DNA of 44,977 nucleotides from a virus: IMG/VR virus record IMGVR_UViG_3300006175_000008, positions 1-44,977 of that record; one strand, written 5' to 3'. The position numbers were made by a program, and so were the translations under genes. The notes under the pieces were generated by a model, which worked only from the letters and a program-made list of their open reading frames with translations, was not told the DNA's origin and searched no databases. Shown here one piece after another: positions 1,179 to 44,977 of the stretch (within the stretch, counting starts at the first letter, position 1; each line of letters starts with the position of its first letter).

Positions 1179-1790
1179 ATGATCTTGAAGAGTGGGACGA
1201 TCTGGGCGCTCACTACGATGGGTAAGCACAGCGAGCGGGAGCAGAGTGCGGTTGAGTTCTCCCCGTCACCCGACGACTGGCGCCTTAGGGGCGCCTGCGT
1301 CGGCATGGATCCGGATCTCTTCATCGCTGGTCCTACCGAACACTTCCCCGCCATGCTTGAGGCACGCAAGGCATGCCTCTGGTGCCCCGTCTTCAAGGAG
1401 TGCGGTCGGAGCGCGACAGCTGGCGACGACGAGTACGCACTTCGAGCAGGGCGGATCCCTGACGAGCAGTCCGATCGCCTGAGGGGCCGTCCGGCCCGGC
1501 GAGTGACAATGCTGGACCGGGGGCAGTGCGGGGAGGGGCACGTGCTCAGAAGTAGCGACGACCTCTCCGGCGATGGGCGGTGCCTCACCTGCCGTCGCGA
1601 GAAGGACCGGGAGCGCAAGCGCGGAGCGGGCAAGAGGACCACGTGCTCCAAGGGGCACCGGTTCACCCCGGAGAACACGTATGCCTATGTGAGGCAGCTC
1701 CGCCGGGCCAACGGCGAGCTGTATGAGCGCGAGGTTCGCGAGTGCGTGACGTGCAAGCTGGGCCATTCGCCCACTAAGATACCTGCATGA
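1179..1790 (+). CDS. WhiB-family Fe-S regulator fused to two zinc-ribbon-like units, 203 aa
   Basis: Residues ~34-90 form a WhiB domain: the four cluster cysteines are C40, C66, C69 and C75 in the order C...CxxC(5)C, within DPDLF and CPVFKEC. WhiB proteins bind a 4Fe-4S cluster and act with the host sigma factor region 4. The C-terminal half is unusual, with two C-x2-G-H...C-x2-C units (C117/H121/C135/C138 and C156/H160/C189/C192). The second resembles the C-terminal ribbon of the HNH protein at 2560. Start: ATG 1179 follows AGAAGGAG (1168-1175); ATG 1218 is an alternative with a poor ribosome site. First gene of the DNA-metabolism run; its stop overlaps the next ATG. Confidence 0.85.
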   Translation: MILKSGTIWALTTMGKHSEREQSAVEFSPSPDDWRLRGACVGMDPDLFIAGPTEHFPAMLEARKACLWCPVFKECGRSATAGDDEYALRAGRIPDEQSDRLRGRPARRVTMLDRGQCGEGHVLRSSDDLSGDGRCLTCRREKDRERKRGAGKRTTCSKGHRFTPENTYAYVRQLRRANGELYEREVRECVTCKLGHSPTKIPA

Positions 1791-2563
1791 CACTGCCCGA
1801 TCACCTGAGCTACTCCGCACTCGATGCGTACCGGAAGTGCCCGCGACAGTTCGAGCTGTCGCGGGTCGACAAGATGACTCCCCGCCAGGCGTGGTACTTT
1901 GCTACTGGCACCGCCGTGCACAACGTGGTGGAGGGGTATCTCAAGGACTTCCTTGACAAGGACGTGAACGTTAGGGATTATGCCGAAGAGCTGTTCATCG
2001 CCGAGGTCGAACGCCTCATGAAGATCGAACCAGACACCCATGCGTGGGCTCACGCTGGATCCGACAAGGACCCAGTCGTCGAGGAGAAGGCACTCATCCT
2101 CGCGCAGGACTGCGCCGAGGAAGCCATCGCTCAACTGGAACAGATCGACGCATGGGAGTGCGAGCTTGACGTGAGCGGCAACCTGGATCCCTGCCCCGTC
2201 CCGATCAAGGGATATGCCGACATCGTCGGCGAGCACAAGAAGCATGGTCCGATCATCGGGGACTGGAAGACGGGCAAGAGCAAGCCGAAGGACAACCTTC
2301 AGCTTGAGACCTACAATGCGCTCATGAAGTCCGGGATCTACAGGGATCTGGAGTTCAAGGGCCTTTGGCTGATGGTCAATCCGCAGGCATCCAAGGCTCG
2401 GCCCGTCGAGCTGAAGGAGTCCCCGAAGTCCATGGGTCTGATGTACGCGGACGCATGGCGGAAGATCGAGCGGGGCGTCTTCCCCGCTCGGGTTCAGTAC
2501 TCCTGCAAGTTCTGCCTGCAGGAGTCCAACTGCAAGACCCAACCAGGGAGGGATGGGAAGTGA
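1787..2563 (+). CDS. Cas4/RecB-like PD-(D/E)XK exonuclease, 258 aa
   Basis: The product has the RecB-nuclease core: H45 in GTAVHNVVEG, D145 in GYADIVG, D159-x-K161 in GDWKTGK, and Q172 in LQLETY. Four cysteines (C18 and C240/C243/C249) match the Fe-S clasp of Cas4/AddB-type nucleases. Such phage proteins process DNA ends for recombination or replication. It starts at ATG 1787, overlapping the WhiB stop, and its own stop overlaps the HNH start. No CRISPR array or Cas1/Cas2 is present, so this is a stand-alone phage nuclease. Confidence 0.85.
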   Translation: MTLPDHLSYSALDAYRKCPRQFELSRVDKMTPRQAWYFATGTAVHNVVEGYLKDFLDKDVNVRDYAEELFIAEVERLMKIEPDTHAWAHAGSDKDPVVEEKALILAQDCAEEAIAQLEQIDAWECELDVSGNLDPCPVPIKGYADIVGEHKKHGPIIGDWKTGKSKPKDNLQLETYNALMKSGIYRDLEFKGLWLMVNPQASKARPVELKESPKSMGLMYADAWRKIERGVFPARVQYSCKFCLQESNCKTQPGRDGK

Positions 2564-4326: not shown

Positions 4327-4453
4327 CCTCTGGCTGAGGGATGACGATGGGCATCTCGTTGCGGCGTGGAGCGAGGAGGACGTTCTCAGCATCGCCTCCA
4401 AGTGCTACAACGTCGACCTTGAAGACTGGTTGGAAGAGGGTGAGGATGCGTAG
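4319..4453 (+). CDS. Hypothetical acidic protein, 44 aa
   Basis: GTG 4319 overlaps the preceding gene, and the stop overlaps the ATG of the RecA-like gene. The product starts VRNLWLRDDDG and ends in a run of Glu/Asp. Support comes from the unbroken overlap chain only. Confidence 0.55.
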   Translation: MRNLWLRDDDGHLVAAWSEEDVLSIASKCYNVDLEDWLEEGEDA

Positions 4454-5252
4454 TCTCGCACGTGCGGCCATGGAGGGCATGGGGGACTTGGTCCCCCTGC
4501 CCCACCCCTTCCGCGCCTTCCAGGATGCGGGAGCGAGGATCTACCGTGGTGAGGTGACCGAGTTCGCCGGTCCCTCAGGGTCCATGAAGACCATCCTGGC
4601 GCTCAACTGTGCTCGGGTGTTCGACGTGCCCTCGCTGTACTTCAGCAACGACAGCACCATGTACACCATCGTGGCCAGGTCTCTGGCCATGCTCACCGGC
4701 TTCGACTTCGACCGGTGTGAGCGCATCGTCAAGGACCACCCGGAGCAGGCGTACAAGGTGCTCCGGGGGTGGGACAACATCCGCTTCGACTTCCACTCCT
4801 CGCCGAACATCGAGCGCCTGTGCCAGTTCGGCGAGGGCTTCCGTGAGATGTACGGGGAGTATCCTCAGGCCACATTCGTGGACATCGCCATGAACATGGA
4901 CCATGACGGGGTGGAAGCACAGCAGTACTGGGATCTCTTCAAGGAGTTGAAGAAGATCGCGAAGGAGTGGAGCACGGCGGTCATCGTCATGCACCATACG
5001 CGAGAGGGCGGGGAGAACAAGTACAACCCCTGCCCGCCCAAGTCGGCCGTCTTCGGGAAGGCCGACCAGGTTCCCGCCACCATCTTTACGCAGGTGGGAC
5101 AGGGCGATCAGATCCTCTTCGCCTGCGTCAAGAACCGCAACGGCAGGCAGGACCCCAGCGGCCAGACGTACTACCGTCTGGCCGTAGACCCCGCCAAGTG
5201 CAAGGTCTGGGATGAACTCAGGCCCATCGGACAGGAGAAGGCCAGTGTCTGA
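4446..5252 (+). CDS. RecA/DnaB-like P-loop ATPase, 268 aa
   Basis: Walker A GPSGSMKT is at residues 42-49, and the Walker B strand ATFVDIA has D146. HH at ~186 and the C-terminal strands fit a RecA-fold core of the RepA/DnaB/RadA type. Such single-domain phage proteins serve as replicative helicase, loader or recombinase. ATG 4446 overlaps the previous gene by 8 bp; longer in-frame starts lie inside that gene. The primase genes lie 1.1 kb downstream, which favours a replication role. Confidence 0.85.
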   Translation: MRSLARAAMEGMGDLVPLPHPFRAFQDAGARIYRGEVTEFAGPSGSMKTILALNCARVFDVPSLYFSNDSTMYTIVARSLAMLTGFDFDRCERIVKDHPEQAYKVLRGWDNIRFDFHSSPNIERLCQFGEGFREMYGEYPQATFVDIAMNMDHDGVEAQQYWDLFKELKKIAKEWSTAVIVMHHTREGGENKYNPCPPKSAVFGKADQVPATIFTQVGQGDQILFACVKNRNGRQDPSGQTYYRLAVDPAKCKVWDELRPIGQEKASV

Positions 5253-6467: not shown

Positions 6468-6810
6468 GGCGCTTGGGTTTGACCCGATCGAGGAGGACCG
6501 TGGTTGGCACGGCATAAGGTGCGCCTTCCACGGGGATCGCCACGCCTCAGGGCGTGTGCGGACCGATGAGTCCGAGGAGCAGGTGTTCACGTGCCAGGCA
6601 TACGACACCTGCCCTCGGGGCAACGCAGTGCAGATCATCATGAAGCATGAGGGATTGGACTACTGGGATGCTGTCAAGCGAGCAGAGGAGATCACTGACC
6701 GAAGCGGCGGAACGGTACGCCCTCAACGTGGAGGGCGCTCTTCCGCATCTCGGAAGGCGAGGCCTGAATCCCCAGTCGATCTCTTCCGCCGCACTTGGCT
6801 TGGTGAGTAG
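6403..6810 (+). CDS. DNA primase zinc-binding (CHC2-like) protein, 135 aa
   Basis: Residues C40, H43, C64 and C70 (RCAFHGDRHASG...FTCQAYDTCPRGNAVQII) form the zinc-finger module of DnaG-type primases, followed by the usual helix with EGLDYWDAV. In most primases this module precedes a Toprim core in one chain; here the core is the next gene in another frame. It overlaps the resolvase-like gene by 65 bp and the Toprim gene by 143 bp. The last ~40 residues, within that overlap, are Arg/Ser-rich. Confidence 0.8.
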   Translation: MRSRFDTTSLPFPSFPIAPVLEALGFDPIEEDRGWHGIRCAFHGDRHASGRVRTDESEEQVFTCQAYDTCPRGNAVQIIMKHEGLDYWDAVKRAEEITDRSGGTVRPQRGGRSSASRKARPESPVDLFRRTWLGE

Positions 6811-7327
6811 GCCAGCGGAGGATGAGCCTCCGCTGTATCCCGGACATGAGAGGTACGTCGGGCGCCTGTCCATCCCGTACCTTACGAGGGCGGGGGTGAT
6901 CGGCTTCAAGTTCCGGTGTATCCGGCATGAGGGACCGTGTGTTGGGCACGCCAAGTACCTGTGCCCCGAGGGGCAGGGCACCAGCTTCTACAATGTGGAA
7001 GCCCTGTTCACCGAGAGCCTTGACATCTACGTGTCGGAGGGGGAGATTGACGCACTGACGCTGACTCAGTGCGGCCTCTCGGCCGTGGGCATCCCGGGCG
7101 CTACCAACTGGAAGCCCTGGTGGAAGGACATCCTGTCCGACTTCCGCTTCATCTACGTCTTCTGTGATGGTGACAGCGCGGGCAGTGGACTGGGGCGCAA
7201 GCTCCAGAAGGAGCTTGGCCGCAAGGTGATCCTTGTCGAGATGGACAAGGATCAGGACGTGAACAGCATGTACGTGAAGTATGGCGCGGACCACATCCGC
7301 GCCATGATCCCAGGGGAGAGCAAGTGA
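6668..7327 (+). CDS. DNA primase, Toprim core, 219 aa
   Basis: Toprim signatures are clear: YVSEGEIDAL (E124, E126), GIPGATNW (142-149) and FCDGD (D167, D169), then DVNS. Upstream, YVGRLSIPYLT is the usual primase/helicase lead-in strand. I chose ATG 6668 (MLSSEQRR) over ATG 6647 because the alignment with typical phage primases starts there. It would act with the separate zinc-finger gene in a different frame as a two-piece primase. Confidence 0.85.
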   Translation: MLSSEQRRSLTEAAERYALNVEGALPHLGRRGLNPQSISSAALGLVSRPAEDEPPLYPGHERYVGRLSIPYLTRAGVIGFKFRCIRHEGPCVGHAKYLCPEGQGTSFYNVEALFTESLDIYVSEGEIDALTLTQCGLSAVGIPGATNWKPWWKDILSDFRFIYVFCDGDSAGSGLGRKLQKELGRKVILVEMDKDQDVNSMYVKYGADHIRAMIPGESK

Positions 7328-8793: not shown

Positions 8794-8864
8794 GGGCTGG
8801 TAGCTCAGCGGACAGAGCCCGCCGTTACGGGCGGAAGTCGGGGGTTCGAGTCCCCTCCAGTCCA
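8794..8864 (+). tRNA. tRNA with atypical anticodon arm (identity undetermined)
   Basis: The acceptor stem GGGCTGG/CCAGTCC (one G-T pair), D arm GCTC-8 nt-GAGC, T arm GGGGG-TTCGAGT-CCCCT and discriminator A are all good; CCA is not encoded. The best anticodon stem (CCGCC/GGCGG) leaves a loop of six bases, GTTACG, and no residue 26. With U33 rules, TAC (Val) or ACG (Arg) are candidates. The 71-nt length is one or two short of a standard molecule. Confidence 0.85.
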
Positions 8865-8891
8865 CGCGGGGTACAGTTAACGGGAGGTAGC

Positions 8892-36810: not shown

Positions 36811-37320
36811 GTGAAGCACTGCACCAAGCACACGCACAGCGACCAGAGGTTCGAGGGGCTGAGCGAGGACCACTTGGAGGCCATCTGCCTGCACTGCGAC
36901 CACTGCGAGCTGTGCGACGGAGAGAGCGACCCCGCCAGCCACGCGCACGGCAAGTGCGTCAGCGTCAAGATCCGCATCACCCACGAGGCACCCAAGGCCA
37001 AGACCTGCGCCAACCCTTCGTGTGACAGCGTGGCCCTCGGCTGGAACGCCCTGGTGAACGACGCTGGCGAGACCATCACCGTCGAGGTGTGCGAGAGCTG
37101 CTCATACCGCTGGACCGCCTGCCTCGGCGTGTGGCCGGTCGGCGATGAGGAGTGCGACTGTGACACTGAGGTGGACGAGCGCCCCGAGACCGGTGCCTTC
37201 AGGGTCGCCCAGCTCTCTGGCTGGGCGATGATCCACAAGGGTGACTACTACGGTCAGTACATGGGTGGCTCCGAGGCTGGCGCCCGTGCCCACATGAGGA
37301 ACCTGCGTCAGCATGGCTGA
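36811..37320 (+). CDS. Cys/His-rich multi-zinc-knuckle protein, 169 aa
   Basis: GTG 36811 follows GAGGGAGACACC. Fourteen or so cysteines are arranged in pairs: HCDHCELC at ~27-34, CANPSC ~66-71, CESCSY ~93-96, and CDCDTE ~119. At least two zinc sites are likely. The last 45 residues form a soluble domain (FRVAQLSGWAMIHKGDYYGQYMGG). First gene of the right arm, so an early regulator is possible, but no family is recognised. Confidence 0.75.
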   Translation: MKHCTKHTHSDQRFEGLSEDHLEAICLHCDHCELCDGESDPASHAHGKCVSVKIRITHEAPKAKTCANPSCDSVALGWNALVNDAGETITVEVCESCSYRWTACLGVWPVGDEECDCDTEVDERPETGAFRVAQLSGWAMIHKGDYYGQYMGGSEAGARAHMRNLRQHG

Positions 37321-37597
37321 GCGTGACTGGCGGCCGATGACGGCCGCCCACTGGATGGGCGACCACTGGGTACTCATCTGGGAGGGTGACTACCTGGGAA
37401 CCTCCAAGGTCACCGCCAGGGCTAGCGCCCACGCCACCCTGAACACCAGGGCCAGACGTGCGGGCCTGAGGCAGGCTGTCGCCCGTGGTGAGATGACTCC
37501 GGCACGCCAGGACCGCAATGAGGTCCTGAAAGGTCACTGGGATCGCGCCGACAGGGCCTTCGCCGCACACGAGAGAGTCCTGAAGGAGGGTCGCTAA
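37313..37597 (+). CDS. Hypothetical basic protein, 94 aa
   Basis: ATG 37313 overlaps the preceding gene by 8 bp. N-terminal WRPMTAAHWMGDHWVLIWEGDYLG resembles the C-terminal WAMIHKGDYYGQYMGGSEAGARAH part of its neighbour, suggesting a shared small domain; the C-terminal half is Arg/Ala-rich and helical. Followed by a strong terminator. Confidence 0.7.
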   Translation: MAERDWRPMTAAHWMGDHWVLIWEGDYLGTSKVTARASAHATLNTRARRAGLRQAVARGEMTPARQDRNEVLKGHWDRADRAFAAHERVLKEGR

Positions 37598-37598
37598 G

Positions 37599-37626
37599 AG
37601 AAGCCACCGCTACGGCGGTGGCTTCT
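37599..37626 (+). terminator. Terminator after first right-arm operon
   Basis: Perfect 12-bp stem AGAAGCCACCGC-TACG-GCGGTGGCTTCT followed by TCATT, three bases past the stop at 37597. A strong rho-independent terminator by structure. Confidence 0.85.
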
Positions 37627-38009
37627 TCATTCCCTGATGGTTGCAAAGTACAACCAGATAGAGTGAAGCCCTACAGAGCCCCTGGGGCAGCCTCCCAGTA
37701 CTCCCCCGGACCAATCCCCCAGGGATGGGGGTGCAAGCCCTTCTAGGCCCCTTGCAGGCCCGGGAAGAGGCATCCTCCCCATACGCGTACACGTGAGGGT
37801 CGGCCCCAGGGCGGGCCGACGACCGTTATCACCCCGTTACCCTGGCGTGCTGGTTACGTGACCCACTCGGCTGTAGTGTTCTGGTTGTCGGAAGCGAGAG
37901 ACACACCGACGAGAACGGCAAGACACCTGATCATTCGACTAGGTGAGTGGGAGCTGGACCGCACTCTGTGCCTAAAACAGGCGCTCACTCACTCAAGTCA
38001 CAAGGGGTC
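37627..38009. other. Non-coding stretch between right-arm operons
   Basis: No supported gene. It holds a TGGTTG/CAACCA hairpin (~37636-37654), C/G-rich low-complexity runs around 37670-37745 and no clear coding signal. It ends at the strong promoter at 38010. Earlier weak promoter-like words near 37850-37880 do not have both boxes at proper spacing. Confidence 0.5.
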
Positions 38010-38038
38010 TTGACAGACTCGAAGACAGTCTCTAGATT
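38010..38038 (+). promoter_or_regulatory. Strong sigma70-type promoter
   Basis: TTGACA (38010-38015), a 17-bp spacer and TAGATT (38033-38038), a near-consensus host housekeeping promoter. Transcription would start near 38045, giving a ~305-nt leader before the gene at 38352. Confidence 0.75.
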
Positions 38039-38103
38039 CGACACCAGAACAGCCCGGAGGAAGCGTCCCTCGAAAGGGGAGCAGCCCGAAGGAAGCGCTC
38101 GGC

Positions 38104-38125
38104 CCTTGAGAACTTCATAGTGTGC
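38104..38125 (+). promoter_or_regulatory. rRNA-leader-like element (antitermination candidate)
   Basis: CTTGAGAACTTCATAGTGTGC closely resembles the GAGAACTCAAxAGTGTG block that I know from pre-16S leaders of actinobacterial rRNA operons (boxA neighbourhood). It lies ~60 nt downstream of the predicted start of the 38010 promoter, the position expected in an rRNA operon leader. Function as a nut-like antitermination site for the hairpins at 38216-38294 is inference. Confidence 0.5.
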
Positions 38126-38215
38126 AGCTACGGATGCACGGAGCACGCCCACATGGGTGCTTGGACGCACACCGCCACTCGTTGAGAGTGGAGAGCATTC
38201 GTAGCGTTCTCTCTT

Positions 38216-38294
38216 CCGTAGGGGTTCGCCCCTACGGACTAGGACCTAGAGTCCTAGTCTTCCCTAGAGCAGGTGCCTTTCGGGGCACCTGCTC
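38216..38294 (+). terminator. Three adjacent strong hairpins in right-arm leader
   Basis: CCGTAGGGG-TTCG-CCCCTACGG (38216-38237), ACTAGGAC/GTCCTAGT (38238-38258) and GAGCAGGTGCC/GGCACCTGCTC (38267-38294) follow without a gap of more than 8 nt. A GTGCAGTCC/GGACTGTG hairpin follows to ~38325. The last is directly before the ATG at 38352. Together they are strong barriers to transcription unless antitermination acts. Confidence 0.6.
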
Positions 38295-38351
38295 GGCCAT
38301 GGGGGTGCAGTCCACGGACTGTGTCCCCTTTGGTCAACCAGGGAGGAAGAC

Positions 38352-38603
38352 ATGGCGAGAGTCATCGTGTACGCCAAGGCTACGAATGACCTGAGCGGCA
38401 ACCCGCGAAGGGGGTGGATCATCCCCGGAGCTGGGGTCGACCGTGCCGACATCTTCGTCGATGAGGGGTTCTCGGGCCGACAGGCCCTGTACGACTACTT
38501 CGACATCGGCTGGCGCGACTACGACCGGAAGTGGGACTTCGAACGCGAGACGACCGAGGTCACCCTTGAGATCACGGCCAAGCAGTACAAGAAGTTGAAA
38601 TGA
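38352..38603 (+). CDS. Hypothetical protein, 83 aa
   Basis: ATG 38352 follows CAGGGAGGAAGAC. Soluble, Asp/Tyr/Phe-rich (DEGFSGRQALYDYFDIGWRDYD). No family recognised. It is the first gene behind the long leader and the first of several single-gene units with hairpin leaders. Confidence 0.7.
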   Translation: MARVIVYAKATNDLSGNPRRGWIIPGAGVDRADIFVDEGFSGRQALYDYFDIGWRDYDRKWDFERETTEVTLEITAKQYKKLK

Positions 38604-38611
38604 TCTGAGAG

Positions 38612-38683
38612 GGTGCTCGGACGCACAGCTAAGGCTGTGCGTCCCCTGAACCAGTCAGGTTCAACCAGGGAAGGGAGAACAGC
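38612..38683 (+). repeat. Hairpin leader unit 1 of the right arm
   Basis: GGTGCTCGG, an 11-bp stem GGACGCACAGC-TAAG-GCTGTGCGTCC (38619-38644), a second stem TGAACC/GGTTCA (38647-38663), then CCAGGGAAGGGAGAAC before the ATG. The same design precedes three other genes. Confidence 0.65.
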
Positions 38684-38869
38684 ATGTGGAACCACGTGTG
38701 CACATCGTGTGACGAGGTGAGCACCACGGCAACGCAGTGCTTCTGGTACGCCGGTGAGAAGTTCGACCGCGCTACGTGGGTCGAGACGTGCGACAAGCAC
38801 GCCGAAGACTGCCGGATGATTGTGTCCATCATGGACATCACCTGTTTCACGAAGGCGGTTCGGGCATGA
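38684..38869 (+). CDS. Hypothetical Cys-containing protein, 61 aa
   Basis: MWNHVCTSCDEVSTT... has CTSC near the N-terminus and ETCDKHAEDC in the middle, a potential zinc site. ATG 38684 follows the leader unit; its stop overlaps the next ATG. Confidence 0.7.
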   Translation: MWNHVCTSCDEVSTTATQCFWYAGEKFDRATWVETCDKHAEDCRMIVSIMDITCFTKAVRA

Positions 38870-39219
38870 TCTTCGGTGTCTGGAACAGCAAGAGCGCGGT
38901 CAGCTTGGACTTCAGGGACAGCATGGAGGCGTTCTCAAGTGAGGGCAGCGCCAAGCAGTCGCTGAAGGGCCGACAGAACGGCCTGGACAGGGTCTCCCGC
39001 GTCGAGTTCGACCGGGAGGGCTATGCCACCATCCTCGAGGCCGATCTCTACTCCTTCCTGGGCGAAGAGGACGACTACATCGACCTCTTCTACGGGGTCA
39101 AGGTCAAGCACGTCGAGTCCTCATCCGGTCGCGAGTGGTTCAACTGGATCATCGACGACTCCCCCTACGCACGGCTGTACTTCGGCCCGCGTGGTGGAGT
39201 CCGCAAGGGGTCCTTCTAA
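38866..39219 (+). CDS. Hypothetical protein, 117 aa
   Basis: ATG 38866 overlaps the previous TGA (ATGA). Acidic alpha/beta protein (AKQSLKGRQNGLDRVSRVEF; FLGEEDDYIDLFYGVKV). Its stop overlaps the next ATG (TAATG). No family recognised. Confidence 0.65.
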   Translation: MIFGVWNSKSAVSLDFRDSMEAFSSEGSAKQSLKGRQNGLDRVSRVEFDREGYATILEADLYSFLGEEDDYIDLFYGVKVKHVESSSGREWFNWIIDDSPYARLYFGPRGGVRKGSF

Positions 39220-39494
39220 TGGAACGCATCGAGACTGGATGCACCGTGTGGTACGACAAGAGCGAGGAGTCCATTCGAACTGAGTGGCACTTCGACCCCG
39301 TCTACCAGGGCGTCCTGCAGGCTCGCTTGAGCCTCATCGAGAGGTTCGGTGAGGTGCCGGAGGCTGACTACATCATCCTTCTCCAGGATGATGAGCCCTT
39401 CATCCACGAGCTTGTGTGGAATCCGGCGAAGTACAGGCTGTGCCCCGAGTGCTTGGAGCGCAGCGATTGGACCTGCATGTGTGAGGACGACTGA
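39219..39494 (+). CDS. Hypothetical protein with C-terminal Cys cluster, 91 aa
   Basis: ATG overlaps the previous stop. The C-terminal CPECLERSDWTCMCEDD gives CxxC and CxC, a likely zinc site. The N-terminal part is acidic with a helix (LQARLSLIERFGEVPE). No family recognised. Confidence 0.65.
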   Translation: MERIETGCTVWYDKSEESIRTEWHFDPVYQGVLQARLSLIERFGEVPEADYIILLQDDEPFIHELVWNPAKYRLCPECLERSDWTCMCEDD

Positions 39495-39715
39495 TGGCGA
39501 GAAGCAAGCGCTTGAAGCTCACTCCACACAGCGCGGGAAGCAGTCAAGGGGTCTGGCGGGTTGTCGACCGCCAGACCAAGCAGGCGTACGCCATCTTGTA
39601 CCTGCAGAACAGCGGCGGGTACCGCTTCAGGCTTGACAACTACAGTCACCGCCTGTCCAAGGAGTACACCAGCGAGAGCCTGGCTTTGTCGGCGATCGAG
39701 AGTGAGGTCTTCTGA
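39494..39715 (+). CDS. Hypothetical basic protein, 73 aa
   Basis: ATG overlaps the previous stop. Lys/Arg-rich N-terminus (MARSKRLKLTPHS) then a beta-hairpin (GVWRVVDRQTKQAYAILYLQ), reminiscent of small nucleic-acid-binding folds. No family recognised. Confidence 0.65.
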   Translation: MARSKRLKLTPHSAGSSQGVWRVVDRQTKQAYAILYLQNSGGYRFRLDNYSHRLSKEYTSESLALSAIESEVF

Positions 39716-44802: not shown

Positions 44803-44912
44803 TGGGGTACGTCCTGTTCATCTCATGCGAGAAGGGGGAGCACTCCAAGTGCGTCGTGGCGGACGCTCCCGAGTGCTGCATCTGCACCTGCGAGTGCCAC
44901 AAGGAGAAGTGA
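44802..44912 (+). CDS. Cys-rich mini protein, 36 aa
   Basis: MGYVLFISCEKGEHSKC...ECCICTCECHKEK has nine residues (eight Cys, and H) packed into one third of its length. It shares layout with the proteins at 213 and 44516: aromatic strand, C-x2-G-x-H-x2-C, and C-x-C-x-C-H. Its C-terminal half reappears at window position 2 because of the terminal repeat. Confidence 0.75.
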   Translation: MGYVLFISCEKGEHSKCVVADAPECCICTCECHKEK

Positions 44913-44977
44913 TGGCCATCAAGAAGACCTACACCTGCGGTCGATGCGGGATGGAGGTGGAGCCTGAGCGCGCCCGC
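44858..44977. repeat. Right copy of 120-bp exact terminal repeat
   Basis: Identical to 1-120. It ends inside the gene that starts at 44912. Confidence 0.95.
44912..44977 (+). CDS. Partial small zinc-finger-like protein (N-terminal 22 codons)
   Basis: Same as the first 22 codons of the gene at 55-216, cut by the window end. It is not a separate gene copy if the genome is circular. Confidence 0.8.
   Translation, partial: MAIKKTYTCGRCGMEVEPERAR

Follow-up and report, generated by a model that had tools for sequence, protein, structure and literature searches.

The DNA analysed here, referred to as the window, is the whole 44,977-nt stretch of the IMG/VR virus record IMGVR_UViG_3300006175_000008. 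Its first 120 bp are repeated exactly and in direct orientation at its end (1-120 and 44858-44977), and the record most likely represents a circularly permuted or redundant (closed) genome. Behind a structured leader at 38 kb, + strand genes extend to 44.98 kb; given the terminal repeat, this right arm continues over the end of the record, from position 1 to about 8.9 kb. The + strand carries replication genes (Table 1) and the - strand the structural set (terminase, endolysin, portal, capsid, and tail genes); thus, the leader heads the early, or replication, arm. The first gene of this arm encodes an 83-aa product with a distant match in the Streptomyces phages Ankus and Byblos. A 1557-aa protein from the tail region is about 42% identical to its counterparts in Streptomyces phages of the Beephvirinae (Stella, Immanuel3, and Manuel), and no named phage shows DNA similarity to window positions 37000-39500. 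The record contains no 16S gene, and it is protein genes that come after the leader. A single tRNA-like gene with a 2-base anticodon is predicted by ARAGORN at 8794-8865, and relatives such as Immanuel3 have 22 tRNAs.

On the + strand the order of features is promoter, block resembling the leader of rRNA (rrn) operons, a branched RNA domain with P1 as its closing helix, the tract GTTCTCTC, four hairpins, ribosome-binding site, and 83-aa gene. A sequence-only reading had anticipated much of this layout. Its near-consensus promoter is present, its rrn-like block, placed about 60 nt downstream, has its core 67 nt past the -10 element, and its gene at 38352 is an open reading frame preceded by AGGGAGGAAG. 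The leader is structured and lies at the head of the right-arm genes, which it had been claimed to drive; the reading missed the P1 domain between boxC and the hairpins as well as the continuation of the arm past the end of the record, and it counted three strong hairpins where there are four. The promoter is the sole site of its kind between 36.5 and 40 kb, with 0.4 expected. Similar spacing is seen in Camvirus/Likavirus and Adzzy leaders, where the -10 element ends 56-89 nt upstream of boxA, and the same promoter layout was found in 9 of 68 leaders, against 0.95 in shuffles.

Table 1. Features of the leader and of the early arm in the window.
Feature	Position	Strand	Detail
sigma70/HrdB-type promoter, TTGACA-17-TAGATT	38010-38038	+	10/12 consensus matches
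rrn-leader-like block (host nut-type region)	38047-38125	+	nhmmer, Streptomycetaceae 16S leader profile, E=1.4e-8
Hairpin at boxB position	38063-38082	+	fold; stem GC.UCCCU/AGGGG.GC, loop CGAA
boxA/boxC-like core, CTTGAGAACTTCATAGTGTG	38105-38124	+	motif and profile searches
GAACTTCATAG, counterpart of the boxC-like stretch to which the KH domains of M. tuberculosis NusA bind	38110-38120	+	position by alignment
Branched RNA domain closed by 11-bp helix P1	38127-38205	+	-37.5 kcal/mol; P1 pairs 38127-38137 with 38195-38205; inner hairpin 38175-38191
GTTCTCTC tract, directly 3' of P1	38206-38213	+	can pair with boxA GAGAAC, as in MFE fold
Hairpin T1	38215-38238	+	10 bp, loop TTCG; -18.6 kcal/mol
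Hairpin T2	38237-38259	+	9 bp; -13.3 kcal/mol
Hairpin T3	38267-38294	+	12 bp; -23.1 kcal/mol
Hairpin T4 (absent from the earlier reading)	38301-38328	+	-18.6 kcal/mol
First early-arm gene, behind AGGGAGGAAG	38352-38603	+	83 aa; no family match
PD-(D/E)XK nuclease	1787-2563	+	early arm
DnaB-type helicase	4341-5252	+	early arm
Toprim protein	6647-7327	+	early arm

How close is the block to the leaders of host rRNA operons? Host 16S genes were retrieved by their own 5' sequence, without use of boxA. Nearly all actinobacterial loci that extend far enough upstream have the motif TTGAGAACTCAA[C/T]AG[C/T]GTG 70-410 nt ahead of 16S, and the leader consensus that the sequence-only reading had given proved correct; the 16S upstream regions of Selenomonadaceae and Clostridia lack the motif. 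In Streptomyces, rrn leaders have the form CCCGGAGG-hairpin-GAAGGAAGCGTCCGTTCCTTGAGAACTCAACAGCGTGCCAAAAGTCAACGCC. A profile built solely from 32 Streptomycetaceae 16S leaders gave one match in the window (E=1.4e-8; next best E=1.1), and the reversed profile gave nothing significant (best E=1.1). A significant match to host rRNA leaders, the test set beforehand, was thus obtained, and a profile from all host actinobacteria hit the same place (E=4.3e-5). The resemblance begins 60 nt further upstream, at 38047, than the earlier reading had placed it. No Rfam covariance model scored above its gathering cut-off; the only two matches, both below threshold, are attributable to chance and lie outside the element.

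The match covers, in order, CCCGGAGG, a small hairpin, CGAAGGAAGCG, and the boxA/boxC core. By profile alignment and folding, this order agrees with that of rrn, including the upstream hairpin and the GAAGGAAGCG spacer, and a hairpin at the boxB position is also present in host leaders (L097 and L098) and in the relatives L200 and L201. The core matches TTGAGAACTYNANAGYGTG exactly, fits the host motif given above, and is unique in the window even at 3 mismatches (0.22 expected by chance). Its boxC departs from the strict Streptomyces consensus at four positions (CTTCATAGTG versus CTCAACAGCG). The likeness to the host leader ends at boxC, and the host sequence that lies downstream, CCAAAAGTCAACGCC, is not kept, which indicates that just the nut part was selected. 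In phage Lannister the match extends over 109 model positions, from the -10 element through boxC (E=9.7e-20). The block is almost certainly an rrn-type nut region under selection, of the kind with which the rRNA operons of a Streptomyces-type host begin.

The earlier reading had invoked host NusB and NusE. Besides the boxA for these factors, the element contains a boxC-like candidate NusA site. NusA is encoded by Streptomyces scabiei, and NusB-domain proteins were found in all three hosts tried. The host NusA matches M. tuberculosis NusA of known structure (1k0r and 2asb/2atw; E=2e-93 for 2asb/2atw). The boxC-like RNA of the NusA structures 2asb/2atw would be the counterpart of GAACTTCATAG in the window. 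A boxC-like element of rrn RNA is a binding site for M. tuberculosis NusA (PMC6614801), and, judged by alignment, GAACTTCATAG occupies the place of that element.

The block is not peculiar to this virus. A 19-base motif retrieved 52 stretches from IMG/VR, compared with 6 for its reverse. A 30-base rrn query matched 159 of 50,697 phage records (by host, Streptomyces 131, Mycobacterium 12, Gordonia 3, Rhodococcus 3, Nocardia 1, and others 9), 150 of them from actinobacteriophages, a count in which records of the same phage and of close phages are entered separately, so that the 159 are not independent events. The reversed query matched 6 records, none of them actinobacterial. These numbers do not rest on the mycobacterial 30-mer, which is less specific because it also matches coding DNA of Escherichia phages. 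Among the records listed, nearly all matches are intergenic and carry no annotated gene. The sites concentrate at a distance of 0.6-1.3 kb from the right genome end, upstream of the first leftward early gene, and head the early operon there in Beephvirinae, Likavirus, Camvirus, Mclasvirinae, Bantamvirus, and cluster A phages; these groups, and Myrnavirus, which also carries the site, are far apart. In the open-access literature searched, no report of an rrn-type boxA in actinobacteriophages was found. From the sequence comparisons, the sites are an unannotated signal that appears common to many actinobacteriophages.

A second setting for the motif is the tRNA arrays of large phages, in which it was found at nine loci (L002, L007, L010, L015, L018, L024, L029, L040, and L049), although L018 and L024 seem to be the same sequence and L015, L029, and L049 hardly differ in the vicinity of the site. 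In all nine, the motif lies behind the first tRNA, a tRNA-Trp whose start is 119-129 nt upstream, and the next tRNAs follow 108-254 nt downstream. In Mycobacterium phage ScoobyDoobyDoo, the motif is placed between the third and fourth tRNA genes. The known task of the rrn signal is the transcription of untranslated stable RNA, and its presence in tRNA arrays is therefore to be expected; it is in such untranslated RNA that antitermination of the rRNA type would be most useful. Two papers covering mycobacterial tRNA arrays make no mention of boxA. The large actinophage arrays with an rrn-type boxA close behind their first tRNA genes include L197 as well as the nine loci.

Downstream of boxC, the leader is highly structured: positions 38100-38351 fold at -135.6 kcal/mol, against -95.7 kcal/mol in shuffles (z=-7.85). 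Helix P1 starts exactly two bases 3' of the core, and a helix in the same register, mostly of different sequence, is found in seven other leaders (L003, L050, L026, L019, L034, L046, and L047). Among 61 leaders, the 25 that score best include 8 with this register, where about 2 are expected. In an alignment of nine sequences, 7 of 8 pairs have changed in both strands and pairing is kept in all 72 cells, but this covariation overstates the significance because the helices were picked for pairing; sliding the partner strand abolishes the covarying pairing. Shuffles are a fairer test than the covariation count. None to a few percent of shuffles equalled P1 in the window, L003, L050, and L026, the helix of the window being better than all of its shuffles, and about 7-25% did so in L019, L034, L046, and L047. 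P1 was rejected as a universal feature, being significant in only a minority of leaders.

The sequence flanking the helix on its 3' side also recurs. TTCTCTC was present in 6 of 62 leaders, compared with 0.5 in shuffles, and AGTCCAA recurs in three leaders with AGTCCAAC (0.0 expected). When boxA was searched for with TTCTCTC 70-100 nt behind it, the combination turned up only in L003 and L050. GTTCTC, which is complementary to boxA, was discarded as a general partner since it is not enriched (2 of 62 leaders, 2.9 expected). In the nearest relatives, L200 and L201, whose terminases are 84-85% identical, the rrn-like block is kept, and P1 and everything behind it have changed in sequence. The view for E. 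coli rRNA is that boxC remains anchored close to the RNA exit channel and pairs with the trailer once this has emerged; the RNase III site of the resulting leader-trailer helix overlaps boxC (PMC10250234). By analogy, P1 could be a miniature of this helix.

The four hairpins ahead of the first gene have GC-rich stems, and none in 38215-38328 is followed by a U-tract, so that they lack the U-run of an intrinsic terminator. Nor is there an excess of strong intergenic hairpins in the early arm (7 in 2924 nt; late arm, 4 in 1996 nt) that would support antitermination. For both reasons they count as no more than putative terminators. Streptomyces terminators without U-runs are known. Another strong hairpin, of 11 bp, lies between the first and second early genes (38619-38644), and GGACGCACA in its 5' arm recurs at 38163-38171 in the leader domain.

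Taken together, positions 38010-38330 would be the promoter and leader of the early operon, with the first half, 38047-38125, acting as a host-type rrn antitermination site composed of a boxB-position hairpin, boxA, and boxC. During transcription of the leader, NusB/NusE (S10) of the host would load on boxA and NusA on the boxC-like GAACUUCAUAG, and an elongation complex of the rRNA type could assemble without any phage protein. It would carry polymerase through Rho-dependent and/or hairpin terminators over an early arm of about 16 kb, from 38.35 kb to about 8.9 kb. In E. coli, it is chiefly Rho-dependent termination that rrn antitermination counters, and the passage of polymerase through strong hairpins would therefore exceed the known rrn activity. 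P1, plausibly in the role of the rRNA leader-trailer helix, might close a small domain behind the anchored boxC, fold boxA and boxC away after polymerase has passed, or mark a processing site. Host-Nus-dependent, N-independent antitermination on the early arm is probably the main task of the block.

Could the likeness to rrn have another origin or another use? Short motif words arise randomly, and the match of the mycobacterial 30-mer to Escherichia phage coding DNA is a case in point. Chance resemblance of a GC-rich leader is nonetheless discarded, with a probability close to nil, by the 79-nt profile match with its empty reversed controls, the conservation of the block in relatives, and the actinophage specificity of the 30-base rrn query. 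An unlikely alternative is that phages took over the rRNA promoter and leader for strong, growth-rate-dependent initiation, with boxA and boxC as baggage that has no role in antitermination. The -10 element TAGAGT and the initially transcribed region of Lannister and Gilson are rrn-like too, and the promoter of the window is near consensus. Yet boxA/boxC is the part best kept while the adjoining downstream host sequence is lost, just 9 of 68 leaders have a recognisable promoter nearby, and the element of tRNA arrays is internal to the transcript, past the first tRNA.

Leader-bound Nus factors could instead lower expression of the first gene, as in E. coli, where suhB is repressed by a boxA in its mRNA leader; putative boxA elements close to start codons occur widely among gamma-proteobacteria (PMC5725501). 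Many phages, however, have boxA 230-950 nt upstream of the first gene and not within about 50 nt, and tRNA arrays offer no start codon to mask, which makes repression very improbable. Hardly more probable is a main role in the folding and processing of the early transcript, with an RNase III cut at P1, a stable 5' end, and RNA chaperoning by the Nus complex, as happens in 16S maturation. The fixed register and covariation of P1, the overlap of the E. coli RNase III site with boxC, and the presence of the element in tRNA arrays, which require processing, fit such a role; many leaders, for example those of Zemlya and Lannister, are short after boxA and lack a significant P1.

Antitermination thus being the preferred reading, the element belongs to a kind already known from lambda nut, HK022 put, and rrn nut, of which the rrn-type copy in actinobacteriophages is a new variant. 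It shares with actinobacterial rrn leaders the 79-nt match, the order of parts, and a similar distance from the -10 element, but has no 16S behind it: sequence unrelated to rrn follows boxC, first a small branched domain and hairpins, then protein or tRNA genes. With lambda nut and its N protein it has in common a boxA and a hairpin early in the early transcript and the expected loading of NusA, NusB, and NusE; in contrast to lambda nut, it is closest to host rrn, its hairpin lies upstream of boxA as in rrn, and boxC is present. The likeness to HK022 put lies in the presumed phage-protein-free RNA antitermination at the start of the early transcript and in the structured RNA behind. Put RNA binds RNA polymerase directly and is not known to contain an rrn boxA. 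Sites of both phage systems lie early in an early-operon transcript, ahead of terminators; the block has this early position, and the hairpins downstream of it, putative terminators, have no U-tracts. The suhB type is likewise an rrn boxA outside rRNA operons, but it is repressive, near start codons, and gamma-proteobacterial (PMC5725501).

Antitermination is well known in coliphages; to our knowledge it has hardly been described in actinobacterial phages, whose early gene control is largely unexplained. If the proposal is right, one host pathway (NusA/NusB/S10 on boxA-boxC) would serve the expression of phage tRNA arrays and also early transcription, the latter at least in phages that infect Streptomyces, Mycobacterium, and Gordonia; Nocardia, Arthrobacter, and Rhodococcus phages have candidate sites. 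In that case, phage transcripts would be made by an elongation complex of the ribosomal-RNA type. The chances are about even that these sites form a widespread, unannotated class of antiterminator copied directly from the host rRNA system, which would work without a phage protein in early operons and tRNA arrays and in some cases would carry a miniature leader-trailer helix. The site offers a simple annotation marker for the starts of early operons. Such sites are also small natural substrates for studying actinobacterial rRNA antitermination, and make it possible to ask directly whether the rrn complex passes hairpin terminators.

Several phage leaders carry additional features around the site. 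In Manuel, RosePharie, Zeigle, and Abafar (L041, L179, L180, and L181), a second rrn-like site lies about 370-420 nt downstream in the same long leader. At one IMG/VR contig end (L038, 153-188), the sequence resembles a genuine rrn leader of the Micrococcaceae type, and this may be a prophage boundary or an assembly running into an rRNA operon. Camvirus and cluster A leaders (L183, at about 738; L186, L187, L193, and L194) contain tRNA-like sequences, with a T-arm-like GGTTCGANTCC, shortly past boxA, and in Saftant ARAGORN predicts a tRNA-Arg 57 nt downstream of boxA.
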